From Dryococelus australis (lineage: Eukaryota; Arthropoda; Insecta; Phasmatodea; Phasmatidae): a DNA stretch of 64,000 nucleotides. Positions 32,090 through 58,386 of the stretch are shown here, one piece after another; within the stretch, counting starts at the first letter, position 1; the number at the start of each line of letters is the position of its first letter. The DNA lies in the NCBI GenBank assembly GCA_029891345.1, contig CM056995.1, forward strand, positions 216,632,547-216,696,546, written 5' to 3'. Made by a program: the position numbers and the translations under genes. Under the pieces are notes generated by a model. It did not search any database. It was given only the letters and a program-made list of their open reading frames with translations, and was not told the origin of the DNA.

Positions 32090-32790
32090 AGTACAGGTAT
32101 TTTTTTTTACGGAACTATAAAGCGTGTGTCCAGTTTACTGGTCTACGGAAACAACGCACATTTCACACTATGCCTGTCGATTACTTTAAAGACGTCGCAC
32201 ACATTAGAAACACCGTTTCAGAGCACTCAAACACTGCTAAAACTCGCTTTTTTCAAAGCTCTGTATCTCAAAAATATGTATTATTAGGGCCACTTGTTTT
32301 TCGCTAAAATATTTCAGGACTACCTGTACTCCAAAACACTGTAACTTAGATACACTTACGTGATTGGGTGATTTTAACTGTCATGCTTTCAAGGTGTCTG
32401 CCCGCGAATGAAGGACGTCCAGTGTTGGAGTTACCTGATTCTGATTGGCCCAGTCTGGCAAGGAATTGTCTCCCGGCAAAGATACGTGGCCAATAACGAA
32501 GGGAAGACTGTATGTATGCCATAGGATATTGGAGTCTAGCCTTCGCGTAAATCTTTTCGCGAAAAACAGATGGTCCTACGTATTATGTACACACAGGAGT
32601 AATCGAGGGACATACATTAAACCTTTGTACATACTCACCAATAAAATTATAGTGTTTCCGCTTAAAGTCCCATGGTTACACACAGCACTACGTGAACACT
32701 GCATGCCAGTCCAGATACCTGCACGTAGCGGCGTTGGTGCACTTGCAGCGCGTGCCAGTGTAGCCCTTATTAACTCCCGCATTCCTCGGC
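32090..32790 (-). repeat. Dispersed repeat I, copy 2, split by T8-E
   Basis: The reverse complement matches 3961-4400 and 59465-59880. It is interrupted by the T8-E element at 32285-32578, whose 8-bp duplication bridges the two halves. Confidence 0.6.
32285..32578 (+). mobile_element. T8-E element copy 1, with 8-bp duplication
   Basis: 294 bp from TAGGGCCACTTGTTTTTCGC to AAAACAGATGGTCCTA. Flanks TGTATTAT (32277-32284) and CGTATTAT (32579-32586) match at 7 of 8. TCTAGCCT lies 36 bp from the right end and the complement of ATTGG at 85-89 from that end. Confidence 0.88.
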
Positions 32791-33362
32791 CTCCAGGTAG
32801 GAGGTCCCCTTAAGAAGCGTCGTGGTCGTGTAATGCCGGAAATCACGTAGTTCCGACAAGTACGAAACGACGTTTAGAAACAAACAACCAATCAAACGTG
32901 AGACGCCTCTAACGTCAAAATGACGAAAACTGTCGCACGACCAGTCAGTTTTGCATTATATATATATATATATATAATGAAACGGGACAGGGTGTACAAC
33001 TTTGTATCATGAAATATTTCTACTGACATTCCTTACAGTTGAAAATTGGCATCTCATTGCGGAAAAAATATTTTCCACTTATCGGATTGTACTCATGAAA
33101 TTTATATATATACCTTGTCGTGTTTGAAGTAATATCTGCACTCTTTATCAGCATAATGTGATTTTTCGTAGCACATTTTTACGTTTGTTGGGGCTCTGTG
33201 ACTTCATCATAAGGAGGAACCTATTCAAGGCGTGACTTACAAACTGCCTCGCCAACTCACTGACCCAACTTATTCTGTACACTTCAGGAATTCCCCCGCC
33301 TACCTGAAGGTTTTTTTGAGTGACTGAAGCACAGACTAGAAGCCCTTACAGAAATGAAAACT
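32791..33362. other. Unassigned stretch with (TA)n palindrome
   Basis: A short (TA)n run at about 32957-32977. Nothing else recognised. Confidence 0.4.
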
Positions 33363-33895
33363 TTAACATTTGACTTTACGATTTGATTTTATGTTTGCTT
33401 TCCGACATGTTGTTTCTTAAGGAACTTGGCACAATGGAACTGTCAAAGGTAAAGTCAAGTAATTTTGACTTTACGATTTCGAAAAATTGAAATTCAAAGT
33501 AAAAAACAGACAGCCATTTTACCGAATATCTAACAGAGGATATTTGGGATGTGGAGATTTTCACTTCGGTGTAATAAACAAAGCTCCTCTTAAATTAAAT
33601 AAATGACAAACGAATATTATGTGAAGACTAAATCTATACGAATTAATATTTTAAAAAAAGTAAACAAGTGAATTTTTTAAATTTAAAATTAAGTTTAAAC
33701 ATTAACTTGAAGCCTACTTAAAAAAGGGTACGTAAAATGCATTTCCGGAAATATGATAATGCTCTATATATAATAAGACACCCATTTATACGAAGCTCAC
33801 AGAACCGTAGTTCAATTGTCTGAACTCTGATTTTACACTTGTATTGTGTATTGGTGGTTTCGTCAAAGGAAAGGAAGTGCAAAGTCAAATGTTAA
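33363..33895. mobile_element. TTAA-3 element
   Basis: TTAACATTTGACTTTAC at the left and the complement of TTAACATTTGACTTTGC at the right: 17-bp TIRs starting with TTAA, with one mismatch. Inside, GTAAAGTCAA (33449-33458) and its exact complement (33465-33474) form a hairpin made of the same GACTTTAC motif as the TIR. A single copy; probably a piggyBac-type MITE. Confidence 0.65.
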
Positions 33896-34586
33896 AATTT
33901 TCTATTGTGTAGGGACCTTAAGAGGAACACTTCGAACTACGCCATCCTTGTTCGCCTAGGGCAATGCACTGTCGTGCAGTCTTCCCTTCTTGCAACGCGC
34001 AAGTGCGTGACTTCACGGAATGACCTTGATATTTCATGGGGAGAAAGTCTGTTGCAAAGTTCAGCGTCGTCGTTTATCACATTTTCGCACTTACCCAATT
34101 ACGTAGTACGTTATCAGCTCTGGCAGTCTGAAATGGCCGTTCCTCTAAACTGTCATTTATATGTACATTCGGCATGTACTTATGAATATTAACTGGGCAA
34201 TACACATGATGAGTATGGTCCATATCCATACTTAGATAAGGTATAGGCTAAGTAGTGACACTAGTATTGATATATATACATAAATATTTAACACACAACA
34301 GCGTGTGTGATTTTGCTTCCTCTTCTGAAAAAGAAAACAGTTTTTAGATTTTGTGAGCTACAATCTCGTCAAAATTATTATCGATACTCAGTTGGTTTTT
34401 AACGTTAATTAATTATGTTCTTTCGATAGGGATGAGTTTAAACGGCGTCTTTAGGAAGTGATGGTGTTCAATTAAACGTGAAATAGCGACAGTGCACCCG
34501 TATTTCATATCGTGTAGTTATCAGAATGGAAACAGAGAACAAATTGTAGCTCCGTCAGTCTTTACGCCAGAGCTGAAAAACTAATA
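33896..34586. other. Unassigned stretch
   Basis: The ORF at 33905-34192 has no family signature. Nothing else was recognised. Confidence 0.4.
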
Positions 34587-34880
34587 GTCAGAGAAACTCA
34601 AGAATCGCGTTATTATTTGGCATCAGGCTAAACTCCAAAGTACTGTACATACCGGAGCCGGTGTCGTATTCCATTGGCTGTTGCATAGATGTGAAGCCAC
34701 GGCCTGTCTGAATGAGCTAGACGTAATGGAGGCACACTAATGTGAAGTGTTTATTTATTGGTGCAAAGTTACACAGGGCGTGCCAGATAAAGTATGTTCC
34801 AAAGACAAATGTGTTGCAAATGTACACTTGTTTAAAGTTTAATGTGTCCCCAAATACTAACGTGAATTTTGCAGGTCTTT
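34587..34880. mobile_element. T8-C element copy 2, left end eroded
   Basis: GAATCGCGTTATTATTTGGC near the left and CGTGAATTTTGCAGGTCTTT at the right. Internal TTCCATTGGCTGTTGCATAG. Length is about 294 bp if it starts at TAGTCAGAGA. Confidence 0.65.
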
Positions 34881-36879
34881 GCTAATAACATTGTAAATCA
34901 TGCCGCGCCACCAAAGGAGTGCGCCGAACTAGTCTCTCTAAATACAATGTCAAACGATAGACAAACCGGAAGTAACATATTCCATTCCGAAAGAGTTATA
35001 CCCGGAAAAGCGCGGGGAATGAAAGGAGTTGTACCAGGGAAAGTTTCAAACTAGATCATGAAGTGGGCGACATTTACAGTGGTAGAAGAGTTGTAGCAGT
35101 ACTTACAGTTCGGAATTTTAAACTCGTAACTGGTGCTTAAAAACCAGTTTGTTTGAGCAACTGGTCCTTGACTCGAGTAACATTCAAGCCGCACGCTCTG
35201 GATTGCAAACGTAAATAAAGACTGGAACATCTTCTAAAAGCGCACATGGTGTAGTGGCAGTGGATATTATCGAATCAAAAACCAGTAGACCCTATGTGTA
35301 ATAGTATTTTGGGGTATGATTACCACATAACGTTCCGAAGATAATGTCAACAAAATAAACTTTTTTTAAGTTTGTCAGTAAGTAAGGCTCCCCATAATTT
35401 CAGTACATGTTCTGATCCTATGTGAGGAGGCAGTAGAAAACCCCCAGAGCAAATACTTTGTGTTGTTCAGTCATGGAGAATCTCGAATTCAAACGCATTT
35501 CCCTGGGAATTTTTGCTAATTGATGTTACCTTTTAGTTTAATTTTATTGGTTATTTTTATTTTATGTATGTTGCTTTTATGTATTTCGTATAAGCTACTT
35601 TCTAATTTTATAGTAGACATTAAGTTTTGTTTCAGTTTTTCTTTAAAAATTAAGTGTTATGTTTTACTATGTAAAGTGATTAAGTGTAAGAGGTGATAAT
35701 ACCTTAACTTCGACACAAAAAATAAAGACGTCATATTATTATTATTATTACGACAAGCCCTCTTGATTCTACTTCAGAAACCAGTAATATTTGTAAAAAC
35801 ACCAATCCTAACTCTCCAAATCTATCTCAGTTTTCCGTATTATTAAGTAAAGACTCTATATTCTAATTCGGATTACTGTTTCAGAAGTCCCCAGAAAGTT
35901 ACTACACAATTACCAACTTTATGTAACTTTCTACTGTAAATAACGCTCACTTCAACCTGTCTATACGATGTCTAAATTCGTTAGTAGACACGGCTTTTAA
36001 TGTTGAGAGAAGCATGCTAAGACAAAAATGTAAGTCTCTCTTCACGCTACATGAGTTTATGTGATGTTATATACCATAAAAATATGTCTTACGTCTCAGA
36101 TTAGATGATTTCTCTAAAAATATTTTGTAAAGCCCTACCTTCAAATCGCTGGGCTGAGAAGCTCCCACAAAACCAATGGCCACAATATATCTTGACAGCT
36201 CGAAATAGAAATGGTTTCTAATGCCGCCTGCCCAGTGCGTTCATAAATACCAAAGTGAAAGTTTGTCAGCTGACAAGGACTCGGAGCGAACTATTTTACC
36301 CTTACTAGTCTCGAGGCAAAAGCTGGCGGCTAACTTTCAAGCAAAACAAACTATCTGAAATGCATAGTAACCATGTGGGAAACATGTGTCCACCAGGATG
36401 AGAATAAGTTAACTGACGACTCTGTGATGTAGTCATTTGCTGCGTTTACTGCACATTTTGTTTTATAAGATAGTTGTTTCTCAAATTAATTTTGAAACAC
36501 TTGTGTATTCATGCATATTTATACTAACAGGTGTATATATATCCTGTCATTATCATAGTTTAGAAAAACGATAGTAATTTTTGACAGGCTATTTTATATT
36601 GCAGTGCATGTACAGACACGTAGAAATGCTTTGTGAGCTTAGCGGCAAAGAACTTTCTAATTTGAAACCAAACGGTGAGTGTGTAGATGGAACGTTTTAC
36701 TAAATGTTTTCAAATGTGATGCAGACATTTCACTTTGTATTATATTACAGTACAGAGAATGCATGTAAACAGACATTCCATTCATAAACTATAATTTCCG
36801 CATTTGAAAACAGTTACAGTTTCCAATAGCGATCCCTTGTGAGGACACCAGCCAGCACATCGTTTTCAGGCAAACTGTC
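34881..36879. other. Long unassigned AT-rich stretch
   Basis: No repeat family of the window was found. A short (ATT)n tract lies at about 35735-35752. There is no convincing ORF. It is one of the two longest element-poor stretches here. Confidence 0.4.
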
Positions 36880-37174
36880 TTAACCCATTAAGACCCAGTG
36901 TACACAATTGTGTACATTACGCACGTGTAGGCAATTTTTGATCTATACCGTGTACTGCGAAGCTCAATGACCAAATGATAGTACCCGCGAGCAAATTATT
37001 TGCAAACTGTTTTACTGGTCTAGGTAATTATGGATTAATATAACTGCAGCCGAACATTTAGCCTACAGTTCATTGGCTGTGACAACGGAACAAAAGTTGT
37101 GTCAGTACGCATCACAAAATGTTCTGTTTGCAACACCTGAAACTGTAAATTAAAGTGGGTCTGACAGGGCTTAA
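36880..37174 (-). mobile_element. TTAA-2 copy 3
   Basis: From TTAACCCATTAAGACCCAGT to GGGTCTGACAGGGCTTAA. Reverse of the 22.36 kb copy (TTGGCTGTGACAACGGAACA; TTTGCAACACCTGAAACTGT). Both ends keep TTAA and an AGACCCA motif. Confidence 0.75.
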
Positions 37175-37189
37175 ACCCAGTGCTATCGT

Positions 37190-37483
37190 TAGGGACAGGT
37201 GTTTTTTCTCGAAAAGCTTTCAAAACCAGTTGTACTCCAAAACACTTTTGTTCAAATGCACTTTCGTAGTTGGACGATTTTAAATGTCACATGTTTCAAG
37301 TGTCCGCCCACGAATCATGAACCTTCGGTATCGGAGTATTTGATTACGATTGGCCCTGTCAAATAAGAACACGCCTTCTCACGTAGACACGCGGCCAACA
37401 ACCAAAGGAAGTCGTGGTCGTAGACGTAGGATATTGAAATATAGCATGGCTATAAATTTTTTCGCGAAAAACACCTGTCCCTA
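37190..37483 (+). mobile_element. T8-E element copy 2, with 8-bp duplication
   Basis: 294 bp, TAGGGACAGGTGTTTTTTCT to AACACCTGTCCCTA. Flanks GCTATCGT and CCTATCGG share CTATCG in register (6 of 8). Confidence 0.85.
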
Positions 37484-37508
37484 CCTATCGGCAAAGGATA
37501 GGAATGGG

Positions 37509-37794
37509 TAGGACCACCTTTTTTTGGCGAAAAGATTCACGCGAGGGTTAGACTGCAATGTCTTATGGTATACGCGCACTTTTCCCTTGGTTAGTGGCCA
37601 CTGTAGGGAGGCAGTTCCTTATCTGATTGAGCCAATCAGAATTATGTATCTCCGTTACTCAATGCCTGTGATTCGCGATCAGACACCTGTAAAGCGTGAC
37701 GGTTAAAATCATCCAATCCCGAAGTGGATCTGAGATCGAGTGTTTTGGAATGCACGTAGTCCTGAAATATTTTCGCGAAAAACAGGTGGCCCTG
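37509..37794 (-). mobile_element. T8-E element copy 3, inverted relative to copy 2
   Basis: TAGGACCACCTTTTTTTGGC to AAAACAGGTGGCCCTG. It lies 25 bp from copy 2 in opposite orientation. The flanking 8-mers (GGAATGGG, CGTATATG) do not match. Confidence 0.82.
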
Positions 37795-37810
37795 CGTATA
37801 TGGGTATAAG

Positions 37811-38101
37811 TAGAGACCTGCAAAATTCGCGTTATTATTTGAAGACATGTTAAACTTAAAAAACTTTTCTTTTGGAGTATGGTTGTCATTTGACCCTTCT
37901 TAATTTTACACACCCGGGCCACTCTGCACAAATAAATTAACACTTCACAAACGTGTGGCCCAATCACGTGCAGTTCACCCAGGAAGGGAGTGACTCGGCA
38001 TCTAGGCAGCACCCAATGGGGGAACAACGCCGGCTCGGGTATGTATAGTACTGTGAATTTTAGCTTAGTGCTAAAAATAACGTGAATTCTGCAGGTCCCT
38101 A
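37811..38101 (+). mobile_element. T8-C element copy 3, with 8-bp duplication
   Basis: 291 bp, TAGAGACCTGCAAAATTCGC to GAATTCTGCAGGTCCCTA. Flanks GGTATAAG (37803-37810) and GGTATAAT (38102-38109). Confidence 0.88.
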
Positions 38102-38105
38102 GGTA

Positions 38106-38318
38106 TAATCCTTAACGTCTCGTGGACAGCGAAGTCATTAGATACGGAGCAAACTGCTCCAGGATGCCGGATGCCGGAAGGTTTGTAATAATGAATAATC
38201 GCAGCATTCGCCTGGAGTTATTTTGGGAAACTACAGAAAACCTTGGCCGGACTGTGGTTCGAACCCAGGGTCTCCCAAATTAGAGTCCAAAGTTTAACCT
38301 CTGCGCCACCTCGCTAGG
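38106..38318 (-). mobile_element. SINE-B copy 4
   Basis: Reverse copy: GCAGCATTCGCCTGGAGTTA, the inverted B box GGTTCGAACCC and the head complement TCTGCGCCACCTCGCT. Confidence 0.8.
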
Positions 38319-38371
38319 TATATATTGAAATAATGTCTCGCTGTCTGCTGCATTCGCAGACACAGAAACTG

Positions 38372-38712
38372 GAGTTGATGGGACCCGATTACAATGGAAA
38401 CCTGGCGTACGTTGTCACTGGCCGGTGTAGGTTTTCTCCGGGTACTCGCATTTCCTCCCTACCTTGCATTCCGCCGCTGCCTCCGTTCTCAAATAATTTG
38501 ACCTTCAATGACGCTCGAAAACCTCGATGATAAACGCCTGCCGAAACCTCCCATTTCCACTCAGATCAGTGTTTATTGCGAGAGAGATAGCGCCTGTGGA
38601 GTGAACTGGCGTGGAGATGGAGCAGTGACGGAATGCTACTGTAGATAGCCTACAGCAACGATCGTCATGTTTCCCATATACCTCAGCCGAGGATCAAACC
38701 CTCGTCGCCTCG
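38372..38712. mobile_element. SINE-A-derived fragments, both orientations
   Basis: 38410-38500 resembles the SINE-A body (GTTGTCACTGGCCGGTGTAG; TTGCATTCCGCCGCTGCCTC). 38600-38712 resembles a reversed, diverged body and head (GAGATGGAGCAGTGACGGAA; GAGGATCAAACCCTCGTCGC). No complete copy. Confidence 0.45.
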
Positions 38713-38724
38713 TACAAGAAAAAT

Positions 38725-39153
38725 TATCCATTCACGGTTACTTAACACTTTTCTAAAGCCCTGCTAAAGTTATACTTCCAGGATATTCCTCCGTCTCGTG
38801 CAAATTAAGCATAACAATGTCTAGAAAATTACACCAAAGGACGCCGTACCAAATTCGTGCGCACTCAGTTGTAATAATATTTTGCATGAAAACTATTTCT
38901 TACTTGGTGTTACCAACACACACAACTCTTCACTGTTTATATTTATATTTATTATACATGAAATGTTATAATTTATATATAAAAGATAGTTTAAACTTCA
39001 ACTCGAATAAATCAAAAATAATTTTATGTTAACGGAGGCATAACACGGTTGTGATACTTGGCGTATTCAAGAAATAAGTAAACACGTCATACATGGGGTA
39101 ATTTTCCAAAGGTTTGATTCAAAAAGTGTGAAGAAACCGCGCATAGACTGTAG
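38725..39153 (-). mobile_element. Dispersed TIR element G, copy 2
   Basis: ATCCATTCACGGTTACTTAA at the left and GAAGAAACCGCGCATAGACT at the right, reverse of copy 1. Contains ACGGAGGCATAACACGG and CATACATGGGGTAATTTTCC. Confidence 0.65.
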
Positions 39154-39175
39154 TGAGCGATAATAGAGCCATTTG

Positions 39176-39468
39176 TATGTGCACCTACTTTTCGTGAAAA
39201 GTTATCGGGACAATTTGTGCTCCAACGCAGTTTAGTACAGAAACACCTCCATGATTTGATCGTTTGGGTTGTTAGGCGTCTTATCTGTCTGCTCGTGAAT
39301 CACGGACGGTCAGTATCGCAGAAACGTAACTGTGATTGGCTCATTCACATAACAGGCTGCTTCCACTAAGACACGCGAACAATAGTTTAATGAAGACTGC
39401 AAGTGTGCACATATGATATTGAGGTCTGGCCTCCGCGTAAATCCTTTCGGAAAAAACAGGTGGCCCTA
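39176..39468 (+). mobile_element. T8-E element copy 4, with 8-bp duplication
   Basis: 293 bp; the left end is mutated to TATGTGCACC and the right end is GGTGGCCCTA. Flanks GCCATTTG and GCAATTTG. Confidence 0.83.
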
Positions 39469-39476
39469 GCAATTTG

Positions 39477-39700
39477 TAGGGACCTGCAAAATTCGCGTTA
39501 TTATTTTACACTAGGCTAAATTTCACAGAACTGTGCGTAAAGGTGACAACGTCGTTTCTCCATTGGCTGCTGCATAGATGTAAAGTCACTCCATTTTTTT
39601 GTCTGAACTCCACGTGGGTACACAATTGTGAATGTTCATTTATTGGCACAGAGTTACCCAGGGCGTGTCACATGAAGTATGGTCCAATGACAAACATATA
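39477..39700 (+). mobile_element. T8-C element copy 4, truncated
   Basis: TAGGGACCTGCAAAATTCGC starts directly after the right duplication of the neighbouring T8-E. The right third is missing where MITE-1 begins at 39701. Confidence 0.8.
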
Positions 39701-40012
39701 AATGCTGTTCACGACAAAGTGAGCACTTTAGAAATGAACTTTAGAAATGAACTTTAGAAAAATGTCACTGCCCCGGATGGCATGTATTTAAAAAGGCGTC
39801 GTGAGTGACATTCACCCAGTAAAGTTAGTAACGATGGGTGGAAAGTAGTTCCATATCTTAACGTCAAATAGAAAGTTTTAAGTAACCATTAACTTCTGAT
39901 AAATTTAAATATTACTTTCGCTTTCTGTTTTTTTTATGCATCGAAGAGTAAAAATGAGCAGATTTGTATAATACTTATTTACTTTCCTAATAATTTCAAG
40001 TTTAACTTGTAA
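39701..40012 (-). mobile_element. MITE-1 copy 7, truncated
   Basis: Reverse copy from TGCTGTTCACGACAAAGTGA, with a 16-bp internal duplication (GAAATGAACTTTA twice), to about TTTCAAGTTTAACTTG. The outer end is missing. Confidence 0.78.
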
Positions 40013-40464
40013 TTGTTGTCCGGTCTCGCAGATATCTGATGCGTAGTGTAGGAAGGCGGCAGCATGGCGCTGGCAGAGCGTCATCACTGGTGACGTATTA
40101 GCCGGAGGATGAAAAAGAAAAAAAGGGGGGGGGGGTGCAGAAGGCTTGCGCAAGCTCGCCTGAAGTGTGTCGGCCGGCGGCATTCCTGCGTCTTGAGCGC
40201 TGCCCTCAATACGAGGCGAGCCGGATCGCATTCGTCGCCGCCCGCACACATACCAACCACTGAACTACACTCTTCCATCTGCAGCCCCTTGAGCATCGGG
40301 GTTGCCAGGTGGCGCGGGCTATTTACAGTTTCCCGGGCAATTTCGGTAGCTTGCAGGCAAAAGAGTATTGCATTGTATTATATTGTATTGTAAAGGGCTT
40401 ATTTACTTCCACTCGGCGTTAAACCCGAAAGCTTATCAGCGGACTGTTTACAAACTAACATAAC
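40013..40464. other. GC-richer unassigned segment with G9 run
   Basis: Bases 40030-40340 are GC-rich, with a G run at about 40128-40136. ORFs on both strands overlap; none is recognised. Confidence 0.35.
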
Positions 40465-40755
40465 TAGGGACGGGTGGTTTTCGCGGATTTTAATACCAGT
40501 TGTACTAAAAAAAACCTTTTGTTCAAATGCACTTTCGTGATTGGATGAATTTAAATTCCATGTGCCTCAAGTGTCTACCCGCGAATCATGGACGTTCAGT
40601 ATCGAAGTACTTTATTTTGATTGGCCCTGTCAAATAAGAAGATGCCTTGTCACGTAGACACGCGGCCAATAACCAAAGGAAGTCGTGGTTGTAGGACGTA
40701 GGACATTGACGTATAGTATGGCCATAAATCTTTTCATTAAAAACACCTGTTCCTA
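40465..40755 (+). mobile_element. T8-E element copy 5
   Basis: 291 bp, TAGGGACGGGTGGTTTTCGC to AAACACCTGTTCCTA. Flanks AACATAAC and CTTATAAC agree at 5 of 8. Confidence 0.8.
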
Positions 40756-40785
40756 CTTATAACCCAACTTAAACTAACCCCAATG

Positions 40786-40862
40786 CCTTACCGGGGAGTC
40801 GAACCCAGTACCTCCCGCGCCCCAGACAGGCGACGCACCAGCTGACTGCACCACGGGAGGTC
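40786..40862 (-). repeat. tRNA-Arg(TCT)-like segment
   Basis: On the minus strand: A-box-like TGGTGCAGTCAGCTGG, an anticodon-like arm CGCC-TGTCTGG-GGCG with TCT in the loop, and the perfect B box GGTTCGACTCC. The acceptor stem pairs poorly and a T-stem pair is broken, so this is more likely a SINE head or tRNA pseudogene than a working tRNA gene. Confidence 0.5.
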
Positions 40863-42001
40863 GGCAGGAAAACTGAAGAACTTACAAAATTTATTTAAAT
40901 CTAAGTACAGATTTTCACAAGTCTTAATTAAAAAAAGTAATTATTTCTTAGGACATATGAGTATTTTCGATATTTTCAATGCATATTTTAACACAAACAT
41001 TAGCCCTCTAATTGCAATAATTCTTCATTTGTTTACGCTGTGGTTTGTAAATATAAAGTGGAGTAAATAAGCATAAAATACTAACAGGAAACTACATTGG
41101 TCGTACACTTGCCCTTCAAAAGCATTAGAACATGAATCTTGGGAGTAAAGCGTGAATTTTCCTCCAGCCTTGCGGGAATTCGTGCTCGGATTATCTGGCA
41201 ACACTATAGAACATGTAGCTATGGGAGTTGCAAATCAACTCTAGGGGCAGCAACTTCGCGTATAGGAGACGGCTTGAATGGCGATAAAAATGCATTTTCT
41301 TTGAGCTGAGCAATGGAAAATGCTTGGTTCAGTTTTAAGTGACTTTCTTCAACTTAATTATGTAGGTAGCTTATGGGTATAGAACAAATATTGGAAAGTA
41401 GAAACTGCTTCATACGAAACACATAATTTATATTTAAAATTTAACAAAAACTTTCACAAAAATAAATTTTGCCTATGCTCATGGACTAGGTTGTAGATGC
41501 TGTCCCAAGAATTTTTGGCAATATTTATAACAAGGATACCATTAAAAAAATGCATCTATATCACCATGCAACGGGTTCGAAAATCCACCACTAAATGTCA
41601 GCCACTTTGCTTTGTATCTCGTATACGGTGCAACATTATGGCCGCTGTTTCACCCGTGCAGACTGTGTCCTTTCTTTTTTTTCAGGGTCCTACGAGGCAA
41701 AAATACCCATAATTTTATAGGTGTATGGAACACAGTTGAACCTGTACACATGACGTAATATATTTGCAACTAAAACTTTATTATATCTAATCAAAGTAAC
41801 AGTGAACGCACCAACTGGAAGAAGAAAACAAAATGGCACGTTACTCGAACGAAAGCTCCCAATACACAACATTGTGTCTTGTAAGTGTGTCGAGCAGAAC
41901 ACGAAAATACTGCTATTTGACCACGTTGCATAGTATTTGTTGGTGAGGATCTTTACCGAAGTTTTACAAGAAATTCGGATTCAGATAAGAACAACAACAA
42001 T
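40863..42001. other. AT-rich unassigned stretch
   Basis: No gene or family recognised. The ORFs at 41497-41712 and 41690-41902 have no signature. Confidence 0.4.
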
Positions 42002-42295
42002 TAGATACCTGTGAAATTGGCGTTGTTATTTCAGGACACGTTAAACTTAAACCAAGTGTACCTTTGAAATACGTTGGTAATCGGATCATGCTTTATCTGA
42101 CACGCTCTGGGCATCTCCGCGCCATTAAATGAACACTTCACAACCGTGTGCCTCAGTCACGTGCAGTTCAGTCAGAAGGACGTGGCTTCACAGATATGCT
42201 GCTGCCAACAGAGCAAACGACGTCGGCACGAGTATAAACAGTACTGTGAATTCTAGCCTGGTGGCAAATAATAACGCGAATTTTGCACATCCCTA
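42002..42295 (+). mobile_element. T8-C element copy 5, with 8-bp duplication
   Basis: 294 bp, TAGATACCTGTGAAATTGGC to AATTTTGCACATCCCTA. Flanks ACAACAAT (41994-42001) and ACAACAAC (42296-42303). TCTAGCCT lies exactly 36 bp from the right end. Confidence 0.86.
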
Positions 42296-42303
42296 ACAAC
42301 AAC

Positions 42304-46337: not shown

Positions 46338-46901
46338 GAGGGACCTGCGAAATTCCCATTATTTAGAGATGATCGAAAATCGCTGAAATGTTGTCAGCCA
46401 ACATGTCTTCTATGACACTTTAACTACGTTATTCTTTTATGATTGGCTGAACAAGGGTTTGACTCGGCTAAGCTGTTTGCAGACCAATCACGGACGTTCT
46501 GCCCTATAGGATTGGAATCCTCATTGGCCCAGTGAAATGGGGTAGTAGCTTCGTACACGCATGCCAGCCAATTAGGAAAGAAATCTGTCCAGACTGTGTA
46601 CAGTGCGTTGAATCCTAGAAAAAGTTAACTTTTCCCGCGATAAACCATCTTCTCTAGCGTTATTATTTGGGGACACGTTAAACTTGAAACATGTGTAACT
46701 TAGCTATACGTTTGTCACTGGACCATACTTCATGTGACACGCCCTCGGCAACTCTGCGCCAATCACATTGAGTTCAGTAAAAAACGGAGTGACTTCACAT
46801 CTGTGCAGCAGTCAATGGAGAAACGGCGCTGTCTCATTTACGTACAATAATGTGAAGTTTAGCCTGATGTAAAATAATAATGGGAATTTTGCAGGTCCCT
46901 G
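46338..46901. mobile_element. Long T8-C type element, perfect 8-bp duplication
   Basis: 564 bp, GAGGGACCTGCGAAATTCCC to GGGAATTTTGCAGGTCCCTG. Flanks ACTATAGG are identical (46330-46337 and 46902-46909). It is about twice the usual length; a second T8-C-like start (TTATTATTTGGGGACACGTT) occurs at 46662, so it is composite. Its target was the TATAGG end of MITE-1 copy 9. Confidence 0.82.
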
Positions 46902-49120: not shown

Positions 49121-49424
49121 TAAGGATAGGTGGAGAACGGAAAAATTCGCGAGTTCAATGACACGTAGGCTAGACTACACAGTCATGTATATACTCGTGC
49201 CTCAGATGTTTGTTCATTGGCTGCTGTCCCGTAGAGTAGCGAGTGTTACTTCGCACCTGGCAGTATGGCATTCCCTCATTCTTTCCTTGCAAGTCTGCTA
49301 TTGGCTTAGAGTCGTCAAAGGCGAGTCTAATAAACTGCGATCCAATTGCAAAGTCAACTTCAGCGTACAAGTGTTTGACGTCTATCTTGTCCTGAAATGA
49401 ACTCGCGAAATTTTCCTATCCCCA
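49121..49424 (+). mobile_element. T8-D element copy 1
   Basis: About 304 bp, TAAGGATAGG... to GCGAAATTTTCCTATCCC. Contains GTAGGCTAGACTACACAG, CATTGGCTGCTGTCCCG and CTATTGGCTTAGAGTCGTC. A second T8-D-like unit begins at its right edge and no matching duplication was found. Confidence 0.75.
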
Positions 49425-49898: not shown

Positions 49899-50142
49899 TT
49901 TATCAGATATTGAAAGTTGAACTAATATTAATTGAATATACGTATTACTGACTTCCTGAATTCAGAACGTTGAGAACAAAGCCGGAAATAAGTTCGTTGA
50001 CTAATGAAAGACTACAGCCAAAAGAAATACTATATCCAAGCAAAACAGAAACCTTAGCAAAAATATATAGAAGACATCAATACCTTGAAACTCCATTACC
50101 GCTTCTGGGATAAGGCGATCGCTTTACATATAGTGAGTTCAT

Positions 50143-50927
50143 TACTGCTCGCTGTAAACTGAGAACTTTCGAAAGGCCTGCTTAGCATCTTATTTTATGC
50201 CCATGTGTATTCGCACACAATATGTAAAATTGGTATTGTGCCGATCAAGTGAAACTGTGAAATAATGAAAAAAGATTAAATTCTTTACAAATTTCCGTAT
50301 TCTTACGAATGTTTACGAAATATTTTAAATACAACCACAAGACTTTTCCATTTGTCGTTACCAATTTAACACGTTGAGGTCTGCACAAATTTACTGACAC
50401 TTGAGACACATTACAAGTGAATCACCTATATACACTACTGGAAGAACACCGGTTAACACCGGTTCTGTTGGTGTCTGTGTTAGAACTCACCATCGTCCTA
50501 TTGGTTCATGCCACACCGGATACCATCCTGTACTTCATAGTGTTTATTATTGGCCGGTCATCAACCAATGGTAAGCCGAGCTGATACTGACCCAATCAAA
50601 TGTCCTTTATCGAACAAAAGCATTTACAATCAATCATGTCCCTTTGAGTGTCAATAAAAAAATTCTATCGTTAGCAATACCAACGTTACTGCGATGTTGT
50701 GTTCTTGTGGGGTCATGTAAAACACTGGCCGAACAAAGACTGCACATCCATGCGAGTTTTGTTCTGAACAACAAAGACGTTTTCAAATTTGCTTTGCTCG
50801 AGCTACACTCGAGCGTAGTCTACAACGTGTTAACTGTGCGCAAGCCAGTCAGTATTCCATTATATAAGGTCAGTGATATTTTCCAAAGGTTGATTTAAAA
50901 TGTGTTAAATTAACCGTGGGTAGTTTA
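50143..50927 (+). mobile_element. MITE-1 copy 12, host of a TTAA-1 element
   Basis: The left part TGTAAACTGAGAACTTTCGA and GGCCTGCTTAGCATCTTATT runs to TTGTCGTTACCAA. The right part resumes after the insertion with CTGTGCGCAAGCCAGTCAGT and runs to a diverged terminus at about 50927. Confidence 0.75.
50366..50833 (+). mobile_element. TTAA-1 copy 3, nested in MITE-1
   Basis: TTAACACGTTGAGGTCTGCA to AGTCTACAACGTGTTAA, with TTAA at 50366-50369 and 50830-50833. It interrupts MITE-1 at the conserved CCAACTTTACTGGGCGC site. Confidence 0.87.
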
Positions 50928-50956
50928 CAACAAAATTTAAACGAAAAATGAACTAC

Positions 50957-51305
50957 ATATTTGTGTAATTTTACACAAATATACGGGGCAGCACAATCTC
51001 CACACATGTTCGTGTATGTAGGCTACATGCGTACGTGTCATTTTACTGTGTGTCCCATGATTTTTTTACAAATACAATGCCAGTGTAATTTTACTATACA
51101 TATTATTCTGTTTATTAATTATCATGTTAAATCACAAGTACTCTGTATGCATCATTTTACTTTTTTTTTGCTGTCAATATCCAGACACATAATTTAAATT
51201 TACACAAACATTGTTAGTGTAATTTTATCATACCTGTGAGTTTATTTTACTAATCATCACATTATATCACATGTTCTCTGTATTTGTTATTTTATTATGC
51301 TTCCT
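50957..51305. repeat. Three-unit degenerate tandem array
   Basis: Units start near 50962, 51082 and 51216 with TGTAATTTTA; periods are about 120 and 134 bp. Shared later motifs are CATGTT..., CTCTGTAT and CATTTTAC or TATTTTAT. The first unit also holds a 12-bp-arm palindrome, ATATTTGTGTAA with its complement (50957-50982). Confidence 0.55.
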
Positions 51306-51344
51306 ACCAATTTTCTGCCGCACATTGTGTGTCTGTGTGTGTGT

Positions 51345-51684
51345 GTATCTTAAACGTGTTATACTTCTGTTAACACAAAAGAACGGCATCTTATTTTTGG
51401 TAAAATTTAACTTTTGCTCTATATTTCATCTATAAAATATAATATTTTTTCTAATTAATATGAACAAAAACAAGGAGAAAATAGGTGTGTTGATGACGCC
51501 TAGTAAGAAATAGTTCTTATAAAAAATATTATTTAATTAAGTGCTTACCAACGTGGTGCGTTCTCGCTCTGGTGTTATTTTGTAGACTCGGTTAAGCTTT
51601 GTTTGCATAAGGCGGTGTAATATCATGGAAGTAAAACATTAGCTGGGCTTCAGAAAAGTTGGAAGAAGCCGTGAACGGACTATA
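51345..51684 (+). mobile_element. Dispersed TIR element G, copy 3
   Basis: Aligns with 2430-2768: GTTAAGCTTTGTTTGCATAA, GGGCTTCAGAAAAGTTGGAA, then GAAGCCGTGAACGGACTATA. The left end is missing. Confidence 0.62.
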
Positions 51685-51704
51685 ACTTCGAATGGGAAAT
51701 ACTT

Positions 51705-53641
51705 GACTAAGGGCGAATCGTCGAGGGGGGGGGGGGGGTTCAGAATCTTGAACCCTCCAATTGGTGGTTGTTTTAACTTTTAGCATCGGATAAAATGAGA
51801 TTTTTTTAAAACCAGTTACTTGATTAAAATGCAATTTTTATACATACAGTATACCTAAAACATTAAAAGAAAGGTTTAAAATATATTCCGCTTGCCCATC
51901 CATTAAATATTGTTATTAATATGTTTGATCAAAATTTTATGCCCCTGGTAAGCATGTGGAGTGAATGTACAGCACAGTGCCTGTTTCCCCTCCTTCCACT
52001 CAAATTGCCACTGCTGAAGTTGATCTCAGTTACGCCACAGGACGTGACTAACATAATTGATAAGAAAAAAGAAACCAGTTTCATGCCCTCAATTTCATTT
52101 ATTACTTGATATCACAAGGGCGAAGAGATGAAGCTGTTTTTAACTGGACTACAAGTGTCAACTTATATATATATATATGTAGTACCCCACTCGCGACACA
52201 AAGTCGCAATGAAGCGACCGCTAAGAAAAAATTATATAGATATTTTCTGTAGCTGTGTTGTCATATTACATAAGCTCAATCATTTTCGAACTGACGATTT
52301 TTTTATGTTAGTTAATGATTGTCTACCCTTTAAGTAGGTAGGTAACCCTTAATGCCTCGTCAACAGTAGGGTCATTAAAGACGGTACTTTTTAACTATCA
52401 TCTGATAAATCGATGATCTAGTGTTATAACCACGATTAAATTCAGACACGTTGTGTATTATTATCTAAGAAAATATATTCCTTTTATTTTTCGTCCTTTT
52501 TCTCGTTATTCTCGTTGTACAGTATTTGATAATATTAAACTGTATACTTGTTAACCAGTGTTGAGGAAATAAGATTCTTGTGATAAAAGTGAGATCCTAT
52601 ATTTTAAGACCTATTTCGAAACATTATACCTTTGAAATAATTCTCGGGTTACTCACAGTAGCGAATTTTGGTTACCTTGAACACTCTGTAGTTATTAAGC
52701 GAGAACTTGTTAAAAGTCATCGGAAACTCAACCACCACAACGATGTTGCATTGCGAGTCACGCTTGCCCGTCAGTTTTCCGAGAGCCGTACCAATGGGTT
52801 CAGACATTATATGGCTAAGGTTTGGCGCATTTTGATGTCGTATACTCTGATAATTCAGATAAATACTGACTAAAATATATGGTCCGACAGTAATTTAATA
52901 TTTCCGGTGGCAACTGTATTCCTTCCAGTGGTTACATGTGCAATAGACTAATATCGGTGTTGTGTACTACCGTTACTTCAGCATGAAACTGTTTCTTACC
53001 AGTAATTTATCATTCCCTGTGGCGTGAAGTGCGAGATTTTCAACATTTGCATCCTGTTTACACATATCTCGCAGATTTACGGGGACAAAACCCACAAGCG
53101 ACTCCGGCCTAGAAACGTGTTCTGCGGATATGACACCACCCGAAAGCATGTCACGCTCCCAAGCAAAATATGGCGTTCCAAGTCGTTGACCTTCGCGTTG
53201 CCACACAAAACATTCCAGCCGCATGCGAGTTGCCACCCACCGATGGCCATGACTTCTAAGAAGTATAAATGGCAAGTACTTTTCAAACGGGTGAGAATTC
53301 TTCCTCGTCAAATGATAAATTTCTTAACAGAATGATCCAAAATATTTCATTTAGAAAATGGGACAATCCATTTAAGTGCCTAAGGGAGCTGAGACCCCTT
53401 CCCATTGGATATGTTTTTTTACAACTGATAAAATTCGGTTATTATTTAAACTAAATGCATTGTTAATAATGCAGTGTTAACACGTGCGCACAGACGAGAT
53501 TTAAAAATATCTTTAGATAGCCTATCCACGCAGTAATGGTATTTACTCGTATAATGTAGCATAGCGTAATGTTTTAACCAAATTCACAGTATCAAAGCCC
53601 TCAATTATCTCCATCCCTCAAGAATCCCTTGATCCGCCACT
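51705..53641. mobile_element. Possible degenerate hAT element
   Basis: The right edge, read in reverse, is CAGTGGCGGATCAAGGGATT, a typical hAT-type end. At the left edge, AGGGCGAATCGTCGAGGGGG with a G run resembles the same end. No hAT transposase can be read between them, the flanking 8-mers do not match, and the interior is AT-rich with short unrecognised ORFs. The pairing of the two ends is an inference. Confidence 0.3.
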
Positions 53642-53645
53642 GACC

Positions 53646-53862
53646 ATGAGCTGCTCCCTCCCTCCCAGGCGATCCGGGTTCAATCCCCAGCCGAGTCACT
53701 CAGGATTTTCGCATGTGGGAATCAAGCCGGACGATGCCGTTGGTCAGCGGGTTTCCTAGGGGATCTCCCGTTTCCCCCGTCCTTTCATTCCGGCGCTGCT
53801 CCATACTCACCTCAATCGCCCTCATCGGCTGTCAAGACCTCGGTGTTAAGAGCCGTCCAAAT
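53646..53862 (+). mobile_element. SINE-A copy, head truncated
   Basis: CCCAGGCGATCCGGGTTCAA (B box GGTTCAATCCCC), GGACGATGCCGTTGGTCAGC, CTTTCATTCCGGCGCTGCTC and the tail TCAAGACCTCGGTGTTAAGA. Confidence 0.85.
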
Positions 53863-53863
53863 G

Positions 53864-53920
<57 letters not shown>
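53864..53920. repeat. CT then CA compound microsatellite
   Basis: (TC)n followed by (AC)n, directly at the 3' end of SINE-A. Confidence 0.95.
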
Positions 53921-54626
53921 TTCACTGACTATGAGTACCTAGTTGTTCGGGGAAAGTAGTCATTATTTTACCTTCAAATTCTGCTATATTTTGTAACAGA
54001 CTAAACTTATCTGCAAGACCCGAAATAGTCTCCGTACACGCTCAGGGACACACCCAAGGCAGTAAGTCCCGTCCATGAAGAAACATGACTCCATGAAACA
54101 ACTAAGTCCCGGAAGTTACTTTATAACACTATCACTGTTTTCGAAGAGAGATTCCTCTAAGAAGTGACTCAGTAGTATAAAAACGCGCGTTTCGACAACT
54201 AAAGCATTAAGAAATATATAAATTGCAAATGTCTTCAGCAGAGAAAGTTTCGTTAAAAGTTCTATAATGAAACATTTCATTATTTTATATTTGTGCGAAC
54301 TACGGTTCAAATCGTAAACATTACCTAGGACAAAAATAATTCGACTCCATATTTTTTGCACAATAACATGTTAAAATCACAAATCAAGTGTTGTTGAGAG
54401 GTAAAAATAATAAAAACTAGATCGCCTGCTGAAATGTGGTAGACTTATTTCACGTTCAAATAAGATAACATGAGTTACTTCACGAAAGATTTGAAATCGT
54501 GCTATGAAATGTTTCCGTAATATTTAAAAATTGCTAAAATGAAGATTTTTGCATATATTTATGTGCACCAATGTAAGATTTTTTGAAAAACAGTTATGTT
54601 TAAATGAATTGATACATGATATTTCA
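53921..54626. other. AT-rich unassigned stretch
   Basis: Nothing recognised. Confidence 0.4.
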
Positions 54627-54697
54627 CTCATACATGGGGTGATTATTCAAAGGTTTGATTAATAAACGTTTGAAGGAACCGCGAGACTATAATCTGT
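54627..54697 (-). mobile_element. Element G end fragment
   Basis: CATACATGGGGTGATTATTC and AAAGGTTTGATTAATAAACG match one end of element G. Confidence 0.6.
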
Positions 54698-54927
54698 GGG
54701 TGAATGTATGACAATCATCTAAGAAGGCGATGTGAATGGCTAACGAAAGAAAATAAAAATGTTAAAAAAGACTGTCTGTAACCCGGCAAAATAAAGTTAC
54801 GCGGTCCCAACGGCAAGCCAAAAGCCAAATAAAATCAGAGGAGAATAAAGAAGAGCAAAGGGAATAACTTATACCCCTGCATTACTTATAAAGATCACAG
54901 GTGTGTGGGTGATAAGCAAGATAGATA
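54698..54927. other. Unassigned stretch
   Basis: AT-rich; nothing recognised. Confidence 0.35.
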
Positions 54928-55350
54928 TATGCTGTTCATGGTAAACTGAGCACTTTTGAAAGCCCTGCTTATGATCTACTTGTGATACCGTTGTGTATTC
55001 TTCCTGTACAAGTAAAATCAACATTGTCATGAGTCTGATGACTTTATTCATGCGTCGGCAAAGTGAAAGTGTAAAATTATTGATATTGTAAATATTTTAC
55101 AAATGTGGTAATTTCTACAGTTCATTGCATTAAAAAACTTGAAACCAATATAAATCGTTTCAGTATTCACAAATGTTGAACCTAACACATTTAATTCAGC
55201 GTTAAGACTTGGAACTACTTTTCCCTCTGTCGTTACCAGTTTTACTGGGCGCTTGCTAATCAGTGCGCCCGTTAAAACATATGCAGGTAGGGAGAGTGAC
55301 ATATTTCTGAGGTTAATATCGAAAGTGCTCATTTTACTGTGAACCGTCTA
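54928..55350 (+). mobile_element. MITE-1 copy 13
   Basis: TGCTGTTCATGGTAAACTGA to AGTGCTCATTTTACTGTGAA, with the full core (GACTTTATTCATGCGTCGGC; GTCGTTACCAGTTTTACTGG). SINE-B abuts its right end. Confidence 0.86.
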
Positions 55351-55351
55351 T

Positions 55352-55536
55352 AGGTCATTAGAGATGGAGAAAGCTGCTCACAAAAGCAAGAGTTGCCTGT
55401 TATAGGGAACCATTCCAGCATTCGCCTTGATCTCTGGAAACCCTGGAAAACAGAAATTAGGACAGCTGGACCAGGATTCGAACCCGGGTCCTCCCAAATG
55501 CGAGTCCGAAGTTTAACCACTGCGCCATCTCAATCG
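55352..55536 (-). mobile_element. SINE-B copy 5
   Basis: Reverse copy: CCATTCCAGCATTCGCCTTG, inverted B box GGATTCGAACCCGGG, and head complement ACTGCGCCATCTCAATCGG. Confidence 0.84.
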
Positions 55537-55552
55537 GAGTTAATAAGAAAGG

Positions 55553-56236
55553 GTCTCTGGCTGGCCAAGTAAAACTTTGGGTTTGGCTGTGTTGGGGACA
55601 CGGCCGTTTGTTTTGCGTGAATACTTCTACGTTGACGCGCTCGGACGCCTTGATGTTTATTTTACGTTCCCGGTACCGCTTCACTCTATCATATGGGGTT
55701 TTATGGGTATCACTGGATTTATTTTGAGATGCTCTTTCCAACCGTATACGATTTCTGTATTTCTACTTGGCTTTTTGACGAGTATAGGCCGAAATTGTGT
55801 TAAGTTTTCTTAATTTTTTACATTAAACTCATACAATTTCACCATAACCACGCCATACAAATGATTTTATCCACGCAATCGATTGAACTTGAAGAGAGCT
55901 GTCGGTTGAAACTAAAACGAGCGTCGTTGCTTCTCCTAGTCAAAAGTTATACTACGCAGAAGTTATGAGACGCGGCGAAACCAACTCAAAATTGTGGCAC
56001 CTCGCTTCCTCCCCCCCCCCCCCCCCATTTTTTGCCATGACTAAAACCACACGGGTTGCTTCGCAGTCCTCACTCAACGTAACATATTCTTTGATCATTT
56101 GGCAATCGAGTGTTGTAATTTAATTTCGAATGTACGCGATAGATTCGGAGCTGCAATGCCAAACTGTATCCCATTATTTTGTTATCATCGGATTTTCTTG
56201 AGTTCCTCCCTCTAAGGTTGCATACTTAAGGGCGTA
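55553..56236 (-). repeat. Dispersed repeat L, copy 2
   Basis: Reverse of 31203-31840 over its whole length: GGGGACACGGCCGTTTGTTT, GAGAGCTGTCGGTTGAAACT, a C15-type run at about 56011-56026 at the same relative place as the G12 of copy 1, and TCCTCACTCAACGTAACATA. Confidence 0.72.
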
Positions 56237-56463
56237 TTCACGTCAGAAATAGATATTCTCAGTGGCGCCAGGCTGTGAGTGGAACGTTCTGTGGTGGCCT
56301 CGTGACCATAGACTAAATATGAGGTAGACCGTTTATTCATCTTCTGCCCATGTACCTAACACTGCCTAACCCCAAGCCTACACAACTGTCAAAGTCATAT
56401 GGTCAACCGCGATGAATGTGTTGTTTTTACATCATAAATTTTAAATGACAAGCACTATAATAT

Positions 56464-57349
56464 TGTTACGTGCTGCAGCTGGCGCCGACTCCGCTGCCCC
56501 GCGCCGTAATCGGAGACCCACCTCACCCTCCTATCTTCCTGGAACGATGCTCTCGCGGCCTCCTGATCTCCTTCTGGGAATCCTGTGAATTCCGACAGTG
56601 GCGAGACTTTCTGGCATCACAGACCTCCTCTCGCCTGCTAGAATTTCCAACACGTTTAGCGACGACGCAAGAATGTTCTGGTGAGACTGGCTGGCACCTC
56701 AGCCCTCCACGACGCATCACGAGAGTTGGGGAAGATTCTAGCTGGCAGCCTAAGACACTATATATACTGCCGCAACCCAGCGGCCGGCAATCATTGATCG
56801 AGGCCGTCTGGCCGAGCGTGCGCGAGTGAAGTGAGGTGTGGACGACGGATGGAGATTGGGGGACGACGGCGAGTGAGATGTTCGTGGCTTGAATCGACGA
56901 GACGGTGTGAAACCGACGAGTGAAGCCTACTGTGCGTGAGGGCGCTTGGAGGACTCTAGAACATTGCGACTGGCGAGACATGGACTGAATTGAGGTGTTA
57001 CTAAATGGAAGTGTAATACTGATTTTATTGTAAATATTCGAACTGTCAAATATGAACGCATAAATTATATAATAATTGAGTAGGTTGATACTCTGTCTAT
57101 TGGGACTGATCTTTAATTATGTAATTTCATTGATTTCCTTGCCGTAATTACAAATTTTATTAATCGGTGTCAATTGTGAACAGTAAGTGATTTCAATATA
57201 TTACGAGAATTTGAGTTCAGAGAATTTTGCTGCAGTTATTGTAAATAACATATGGAAATTATAATTAATTTTTTGTTTGATTAAAACCTCCATGCCTTAA
57301 CGAACTTGGTATAGCCCACTTAATTTCTAGAGAGAGAGAAATTGCAACA
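56464..57349 (+). mobile_element. Solo LTR with 4-bp target duplication
   Basis: 886 bp from TGTTACGTGC to ATTGCAACA, i.e. TGTT...AACA ends, flanked by ATAT on both sides (56460-56463, 57350-57353). A TATA box (CTATATATAC) lies at 56758-56767, with GC-rich sequence before and an AT-rich 3' half after. The Gypsy-type TG...CA structure with 4-bp duplication is established knowledge; that it is a solo LTR follows from the absence of any internal region or second LTR. The 119- and 152-codon ORFs across 56470-56981 are artefacts of the GC-rich part. A diverged relative lies at 24460-24917. Confidence 0.85.
56758..56767 (+). promoter_or_regulatory. TATA box of the solo LTR
   Basis: CTATATATAC about 295 bp into the LTR, followed by GC-rich sequence, as expected for the U3/R promoter of an LTR retrotransposon. 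Confidence 0.5.
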
Positions 57350-57588
57350 ATATGAATAAAAATACTTGTCCAAATTGGATTTAATCGAACTGCCTTAAAA
57401 ATGGGCTAGTGGAAGCATATATACTTCTCAAAACATTTGTTTGGAAATCAGTTTTCTAACCTAACCTCTAAACCATGCGGTTTTAGCATTACGTGTAGGC
57501 AGAAAAGCAGTTCAATGTTGGGACGCGGAGATTGGTTGTGCGCAGCCAGCGAGATCGGTCTACCTCATCTTTAGTCTATGCTCGTGAC

Positions 57589-58084
57589 GAGGTTGTCAGT
57601 CAACGACCGGTAACCTCACGGTTTCGTGATAGGGTTGTCGTCCTGGACGGAGGTTCGTCGGCCCTCGCTCGGCGGCGCGCGGAGTCGACGTCTGTGTTGT
57701 CGTGGTCGCCGTCGAGATGAGACTGTTCAGGTCCTCCCCCCCCCCCTGCACCATGTCCACGACCTGCGACGACTTCTCTCGCTGCTAAACATGGTCTGGC
57801 TCGAGGAAGCAGCGACCTTCCTTATCCCACCTGCCTACTGCGGTACACGGCGGTGGACGACTCGCAAAAACAAACAGGCTATTCACGAGACAAGCTGGAG
57901 TTTCACGTCGCAGGATTCATCAAGCTGATACCACCTGGTAATTACAGTGACCTCCAGACCACTTGGTGTTCATAAATGTTGTCGTACCGGAGGTTGTGTA
58001 CCATCCATCACCGGGCTCCGTCTCCTCGCCAACAGAGCGTCACGGTTTGGACATAAGGTCGAAAAAAATTTAATAACTTGTTTC
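57589..58084. other. GC-rich unassigned segment with C10 run
   Basis: Bases 57589-58060 are GC-rich, with a C run at 57736-57745. Several frames are open on both strands; translations are Arg-rich and low in complexity and none is recognised. A host exon or UTR is possible but cannot be supported. Confidence 0.35.
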
Positions 58085-58092
58085 CCTATAGG

Positions 58093-58386
58093 TAGGGATG
58101 GGAAAAATTCTCAAGTTCAATGACCTGTAGGCTAGATTCCACAGTCATATGTATACCCGAGTCTCAGATGTTTATTGATTGGCTGCTGCCCCATAGAGTA
58201 GCAAGTGTTACTTCACACCTGGCAGTATAGCACTCGCTACTTGTTTCCTTGCAAGTCTGCTATTGGCTCAGAGTCATCCCGGGCATGTCTAATAAACTGC
58301 GATCCAATTGCAAAGTCGACTTCAGTGTACACTTGCTTTACGTCTATCTTGTCCTGAAATGAATTCATGAAATGTTCCTATCCCTA
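58093..58386 (+). mobile_element. T8-D element copy, with 8-bp duplication
   Basis: 294 bp, TAGGGATGGGAAAAATTCTC to GAAATGTTCCTATCCCTA. Flanks CCTATAGG (58085-58092) and CTTATAGG (58387-58394). AGGCTAGA at positions 38-45 from the left end; ATTGG at 86-90. Confidence 0.88.

Follow-up and report, generated by a model that had tools for sequence, protein, structure and literature searches.

A clan of short, probably non-coding transposable elements in Dryococelus australis with segmented ends and an AT-centred target preference

Our study concerns a 64,000-nucleotide stretch of the genome of Dryococelus australis (G000:C3:216632547-216696546, hereafter the window, within a genome of 3.4 Gb) and three families of short repeated elements that lie in it, E, C and D, together with a fourth family, F, that emerged from motif searches of the whole genome. 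The elements are short, numerous, bounded by terminal inverted repeats (TIRs) and flanked by a target duplication, as are miniature inverted-repeat transposable elements (MITEs); judged by their length of 294 bp, those of E, C and D appear to be non-coding. We propose that E, C, D and F are probably non-coding MITE families of one large, diversified clan, moved in trans by related transposases, most likely of the hAT type. This proposal draws on the outer 44 bp of the elements, where segments that are nearly constant across families alternate with segments that differ between families and match between the two ends of an element, and on the 8-bp target duplication, which is preferentially centred on AT.

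Each of the three named copies in the window is 294 bp long, in keeping with the length that the original prediction, made from the window alone, had given for complete copies. E (32285..32578) and C (42002..42295) lie on the forward strand, and D (58093..58386) lies on the reverse strand, reversed relative to the other two. All three are flanked by imperfect 8-bp duplications that match at 7 of 8 positions: 32277-32284 and 32579-32586 for E (TGTATTAT/CGTATTAT), 41994-42001 and 42296-42303 for C (ACAACAAT/ACAACAAC), and 58085-58092 and 58387-58394 for D (CCTATAGG/CTTATAGG), with AT at the centre in E and D and AC in C. The 8-mer AGGCTAGA had been placed exactly 36 bp from one terminus of each copy, and it is found there, at 32535..32542 (reverse strand) in E, 42252..42259 (reverse) in C and 58129..58136 (forward) in D; we refer to this as the right end. 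At the opposite, left end all three copies carry a second box at offset 26, ATTTCAGGAC, that the original prediction did not list (32311..32320, forward, in E; 42028..42037, forward, in C; 58351..58360, reverse, in D). Two further features hold better for the families than for these particular copies. The start TAGGG fails for the C copy, whose first bases are TAGAT, but TAGRG is present at all eight consensus ends. The TTCGCG core described within the TIRs is exact only at the AGGCTAGA ends of the E and C copies, the opposite ends of which read TTCGCT and TTGGCG, and is lost at both ends of the D copy (TTCTCA, TTCATG); it is nevertheless present at both ends of all four consensuses.

Those consensuses were built from copies drawn from across the genome. 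First-look searches returned 5,823 candidates for E, 5,014 for C and 4,764 for D, of which about 40 were scored in each family, and after strand re-orientation of the fetched loci (3 of 8 reversed in E, 14 of 30 in C and 10 of 30 in D) consensuses of 294 bp each were obtained from 8, 30 and 30 copies; that of F (242 bp) comes from 6 oriented copies. As the copies used were the best-scoring matches to those of the window, what these consensuses represent is nearby subfamilies. It would have spoken against the original prediction had the boxes been absent from such consensuses or variably placed, and across the four families this was not borne out, the boxes of C reading AGGCTAAA (7/8) and ATTTGAGGAC (9/10). 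The consensus tips (positions 1-25) match at 22-25 of 25 positions. Copies differ from their consensus by a mean of 8.2% in E, 9.5% in C and 4.1% in D, from which the copies appear not to be very recent, with D the youngest among these samples. Flanking 8-mers match at six or more of 8 positions in 49 of the 68 copies (7/8 in E, 19/30 in C and 23/30 in D).

The spacing of the boxes is fixed well beyond the window. The pattern TTCGCG-N{0,30}-AGGCTAGA occurs at 14,478 places genome-wide, against 43 for a reversed-pattern control, and among the 100 places listed, which are the first along contig C1 and not a random draw, the spacer is 15 bases in 90, 14 in 5 and of other lengths in 5. In 16 of the 90 listed 15-base spacers no more than 8 of the 15 positions match the usual AGTTCAATGACCTGT, yet the length is kept. 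At the other end, TTCGCG-N{0,30}-ATTTCAGGAC occurs at 7,924 places (control 4) with a spacer of 5 bases in 98 of 100 places listed, and the extended form G-N10-TTCGCG-N5-ATTTCAGGAC at 6,680 places (control 0). These patterns demand exact boxes, and their counts are therefore a test of spacing, not of how often the boxes stay intact. The end motif TAGRG-N10-TTCGCG-N5-ATTT is found at 39,389 places (control 2). Twenty copies were taken by their left motif alone from 100 listed, picked for variety; 12 of them carry at least 7 of the 8 letters of AGGCTAGA, 11 at offset 36 and one (8/8) at 35. Six of the 20 make up family F (208-242 bp as cut).

Of the first 100 listed end motifs 83 fall in C1:3.6-4.9 Mb, against a genome mean of about 11.5 per Mb, and 23 of the 40 listed D matches fall in G000:C6:12.4-24.8 Mb (loci L041-L067). 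Local hopping was considered for D and is not shown, because neighbours are no more alike than distant copies: among 30 fetched copies, those within 1 Mb of each other are 0.925 alike against 0.923 across contigs, a difference reached by 107 of 500 shuffles. The flanks of the same 30 copies gave 65 similar pairs.

A comparison of the ends position by position suggests segments of four kinds: some are universal, some differ between families but match at an element's two ends, some are peculiar to the left end and some to the right. Among the four consensuses identity is 0.87-0.90 at positions 1-5, falls to 0.35-0.40 at positions 6-15, rises to 1.00 at positions 16-21, which hold the TTCGCG core, and falls again to 0.30-0.33 at positions 22-26. 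Further in, the two ends part company: positions 27-36, the site of ATTTCAGGAC, are 0.95 identical at the left end and 0.50 at the right, and positions 37-44, the site of AGGCTAGA, are 0.56 identical at the left and 0.94 at the right. Copy by copy, the 68 sequences of E, C and D give the same picture. At positions 22-26 an element's own left and right ends are 0.94 identical and ends from different families 0.22; at positions 6-15 the corresponding values are 0.74 and 0.40; and positions 16-21 stand at 0.85-0.89 in every comparison. Between families, positions 27-36 are 0.83 identical left to left and 0.35 right to right, and positions 37-44 are 0.83 identical right to right and 0.58 left to left. 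In family F the offsets at the ends are kept despite an interior that is 52 bp shorter.

Inside these segments lies an ATTGG box, which the original prediction had placed at about 85-90 in all three copies. This is accurate for D, where it lies at 58178..58182 (forward strand), offset 85 from the AGGCTAGA end; in E it lies at 84 from that end (32490..32494, reverse), with another at offset 78 from the left end (32363..32367, forward), and at 86 the C copy reads GTTGG, its consensus carrying ATTGG at 85. In all four consensuses, that of the 52-bp shorter F included, ATTGG recurs at 84-85 counted from one end and at 77-78 counted from the other. CCAAT is a promoter element, and the inner ATTGG/CCAAT boxes could be sites for a CCAAT factor that came down from a parent element or that serve the host, and would then be unrelated to transposition. 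The inward orientation of ATTGG at 77-78 and 84-85 and the occurrence of more ATTGG/CCAAT in the interiors of the four consensuses are consistent with this; a 5-mer, however, is short, even if only about 0.7 occurrences per 294 bp are expected on the window count and the positions agree to within 1 bp in four families. We regard the promoter reading as possible but doubtful.

Plain descent from a single ancestral MITE would leave identical offsets behind by inheritance and would make them uninformative on binding sites. With the outer 50 bp removed, the interiors of C and D align at 130/177 identical positions (z=12.8), those of E and C at 113/187 (z=6.3) and those of E and D at 110/185 (z=5.2), and the alignments with F reach z=5.2 for C and 5.1 for D; the shuffles behind these values preserved base composition only. 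E, C and D are homologous end to end on these alignments, so the identical offsets are partly inherited. An offset counted from the terminus is kept unless insertions or deletions arise near the tip. The description of the families as sequence-distinct and otherwise diverged is thus only partly right. Descent explains the remainder poorly. Within the same 44 bp, positions 6-15 and 22-26 are at or near chance level while positions 16-21, left 27-36 and right 37-44 are nearly invariant, and the diverged segments still match between an element's two ends; neutral descent predicts neither this alternation nor this coupling. We therefore think it unlikely that descent is the whole account. As to the step from identical spacing to conserved transposase-binding sites, the spacing itself is partly a matter of ancestry, and it is the near-constant islands (16-21, left 27-36 and right 37-44) that support putative enzyme-binding sites, indirectly. 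A foldback origin of C, with an inverted repeat along its full length, was an artefact of unoriented loci; when the comparison was redone the C arm 51-147 gave z=0.8.

AT occupies positions 4-5 of the duplication at 31,247 of the 39,389 motif ends (79%) and TA at 417 (1.1%), and A stands at position 7 at 18,598 (47%). A logo of the 49 copies whose flanking 8-mers match at six or more positions, the other 19 being dropped, gives A4 0.91, T5 0.91, T2 0.44 and A7 0.51, positions other than 4-5 being weak, and the commonest base at each position spells a near-palindrome, CTTATAAG. As a yardstick we used H1, a local hAT family of Ac type (342 places, of which 100 were listed and 95 had letters). 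H1 leans toward nTnnnnAn, with T2 0.71 and A7 0.74 (n=95), both together in 47/95, and has AT at its centre in 7/95 and TA in 13/95. The MITE clan prefers nnnATnnn and so departs from the hAT signatures of both Ac and Buster.

Published systems allow the clan to be placed more closely. With the Ac group (Hermes, hobo) it shares an 8-bp duplication, short terminal repeats, subterminal binding sites, which in the clan are putative, and unequal ends. In Hermes, BED fingers bind a quasi-palindrome at bp 11-27 of the left end and unequal ends are needed (PMC10368747); the TTCGCG of the clan at 16-21 is close to this position. The Ac-type target is nTnnnnAn (PMC10368747), and the clan departs from it in the dominance of A4T5 and in a weaker A7 (18,598/39,389 against 0.74 in the local Ac-type family). 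The Buster group resembles the clan in its 8-bp duplication, in the two-base palindromic centre of its target and in the non-coding MITEs that it moves in trans, such as Mar (PMC3517528, PMC3499496). Its target is nnnTAnnn (PMC3499496, PMC3517528), unlike the AT of the clan (417 TA against 31,247 AT), and the ends of Mar are CAG(G/A)GGTAGGC (PMC3517528). The Tip group (Tip100, BuT2) is alike in its 8-bp duplication and MITE derivatives; its authors state that target preference was not investigated (PMC3942097), and the part of a paper on medaka Tip100 that we consulted gives no target motif (PMC12511174). P elements likewise make 8-bp duplications at a palindromic target, GTCCGGAC (PMC3276498), from which the clan differs in having AT instead of CG at the centre. 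No report of an AT-centred target rule came up in the titles and abstract openings of part of the matching papers, and the end strings of the clan were not found in the literature searched; the families may already be catalogued in Repbase or Dfam.

The termini of hAT elements follow the general rule TAGNG/CAGNG, and two features of the clan are hAT-like, the 8-bp duplication and the TAGRG termini. Termini of hAT families in the same genome are comparable: TAGTG in H1, where aligning loci with hAT dimer domains mapped the end TAGTGATGGG, TAGGG in TAGGGGTGTG (L113, L117 and L118) and, tentatively, TAGAG in TAGAGGCGGA (L084). The H1 end resembles the D end, TAGGGATGGG, with one mismatch in ten, and H1 also has an 8-bp target slot; its tip, unlike those of the clan, is without TTCGCG. 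At the H1 loci (L072, L073, L078, L079 and L083) the end reads TAGTGATGGGTAGTTCAYGAACTACC, with a tip palindrome centred about 17 bp in, and L084 carries AACTATCGATAGTT near its end, like the H1 tip palindrome; in this genome, hAT ends may commonly hold an internal palindrome near bp 17-20.

When left motifs listed on C1 were paired with listed right ones, distances of 233-294 bp were obtained together with a series of longer ones (452, 498, 898, 903, 1,593, 1,664, 2,297, 3,214, 4,848, 6,147 and 7,936 bp), among which no autonomous candidate was found. The 452- and 498-bp pairs may be lengthened D-like copies. Judged by eye, the 898- and 903-bp pairs have ends of different types, and in pairs longer than 903 bp a nearer end fits better. 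A tblastn search of the window and of the 68 fetched loci, with 20 dimer domains as queries, returned one weak match only (E=0.006).

Several observations weigh against a hAT-moved clan with constant end segments. On the side of the boxes, AGGCTAGA matches at only 6/8 at offset 36 in 2 of the 20 copies chosen by their left motif, and in 6 of the 20 the right box is unrecognisable within the fetched stretch; for one of these six (L103) a right motif is listed 498 bp away, just past that stretch. Within 50 bp of the tip, invariant columns cluster with only moderate significance (left end p=0.024, right end p=0.035), and since the boxes were in part defined on the same sequences, the pattern of segments is strong but is not formal proof. 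On the side of kinship, the interior homology of E is modest, with wrong-orientation controls that themselves reach z values of 2.9-4.0 (C-D 3.5, E-C 4.0, E-D 2.9), and the E-F interior alignment (z=2.1) is not convincing; controls for the F pairs gave 1.6 for C-F, 1.2 for D-F and 2.4 for E-F. On the side of the enzyme, a PF05699 profile gave 6,309 first-look candidates, of which 150 loci were listed, and no convincing MITE end was seen in about 1.2-1.5 kb on the 3' side of the 40 of these 150 that were examined. Four weak matches to the end motif at up to 2 mismatches (L074, L081, L110 and L111) were not convincing, and no match came from comparing the same 3' sides with the first MITE consensuses by blast; as a minority of the loci was covered, and one side of each, this does not establish that such an end is absent. 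Finally, a target unlike those of Ac, Buster and the local H1 makes a non-hAT enzyme possible.

A non-hAT transposase that makes 8-bp duplications would account for a target that fits neither the Ac (PMC10368747) nor the Buster (PMC3499496, PMC3517528) signature and for the lack of a clan end 3' of the 40 hAT loci, and P elements offer a precedent for an 8-bp duplication at a palindromic target, though at GTCCGGAC (PMC3276498). Against this stand the TAGNG termini that the clan shares with local hAT families and the single mismatch in ten between the D and H1 ends; moreover, those who named the Tip group state that they did not study its target preference (PMC3942097), so a hAT enzyme with an nnnATnnn target has room to exist. 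We consider a non-hAT mover improbable. The single shared mobilising enzyme of the original prediction fares no better: one unchanged enzyme acting through the common boxes would suit the universal TAGRG and TTCGCG, the left and right boxes that the families share and the AT-centred target seen alike when copies of E, C and D are pooled, but segments 6-15 and 22-26 are family-specific and match at an element's two ends, which suggests that the enzyme reads them and differs from family to family, and no partner was found 3' of the 40 sampled hAT loci, which leaves this reading with little probability.

Related enzymes, one variant per family, explain the universal and the family-specific parts of the ends together, and do so better than a single unchanged enzyme. 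E, C, D and F (the last about 242 bp) probably descend from a common ancestor. The steps of movement that we envisage are hypotheses drawn from the anatomy of the ends. The transposase would cut at TAGRG/CYCTA. Its DNA-binding domain, by analogy with the BED finger of Hermes, would read TTCGCG at 16-21 together with the family-specific stretches 6-15 and 22-26 at both ends, and the left-only ATTTCAGGAC (27-36) and right-only AGGCTAGA (37-44) would tell the complex which end is which. Families would diverge when an enzyme variant and the segments at both ends change together, the core and the end-identity boxes remaining fixed. A bolder view, which we put forward tentatively and hold with less than even confidence, is that nnnATnnn is a third target class among hAT-like transposons with 8-bp duplications, used by tens of thousands of MITEs with a four-part end code in which families would arise by coordinated change of the specificity segments at both ends. 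In its outer bases family F resembles C (ACCTGAAGAA vs ACCTGCAAAA), and in its right inner stretch it resembles D (AGTTCAATGACCTGCAGGCTAGA vs AGTTCAATGACCTGTAGGCTAGA), as though its outer part could be exchanged; under the four-part code it would be a natural swap.

Target preference has served to sort hAT elements and orphan MITEs, Mar for example, into Ac or Buster (PMC3517528). A clan that fits neither, and in which no fewer than 39,389 end motifs are intact, calls for a third slot or points to another enzyme. Ends in which universal, family-specific and end-specific segments alternate provide testable natural data on how a transposase may recognise its own elements and tell left from right, and the clan illustrates that when ostensibly different MITE families have boxes at a fixed spacing, descent and constraint can both be at work.

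Thirteen further copies or fragments of the families lie in the window by the blast table; this search used first, mixed-orientation consensuses, and its matches serve only for locating copies. They include a second D copy (49131..49424, reverse strand, 294 bp) with both boxes kept and flanking 8-mers matching at 5/8, a further C copy (37811..38101, forward, 291 bp) flanked by GGTATAAG/GGTATAAT, an E copy (37509..37794, reverse, 286 bp) with the box TTTCAGGAC, a relative of E (37190..37483, forward) with 72.6% identity to the first E consensus, and a C copy with partial tips (34599..34878, reverse). At 7339..7633 (forward, 295 bp) lies an element with C-type ends and an interior unmatched by the first C consensus, and C-type ends of about 50 bp with interiors unmatched by that consensus were also seen at L059, L029 and L037; further families may share C ends. 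A 293-bp TAGAG...CTCTA element at 46364-46656, with ATCGC replacing TTCGC and flanking 8-mers matching at 6/8 (CCATTATT/GCGTTATT), adjoins a C fragment at 46657-46900.

Next to the named D copy, at about 58391-58500, lies a tRNA-like stretch (GGTGGCTGAGCGGTTTG...GGTTCAATCCC), which we presume from its resemblance may head a short interspersed nuclear element. At gathering thresholds, nothing in the window matched Rfam. The CpG ratio of the window is 0.99, which fits an invertebrate. Another diverged repeat, at least about 200 bp long and as far as seen unrelated to the MITE clan, occurs in about eight copies that are roughly 60-82% alike (at 5875, 9608, 14703, 21008, 46901, 48070, 54919 and 59957), and an open frame of 132 amino acids at 18411-18809 (reverse strand) resembles what we take to be a piece of a mariner/DDE transposase.

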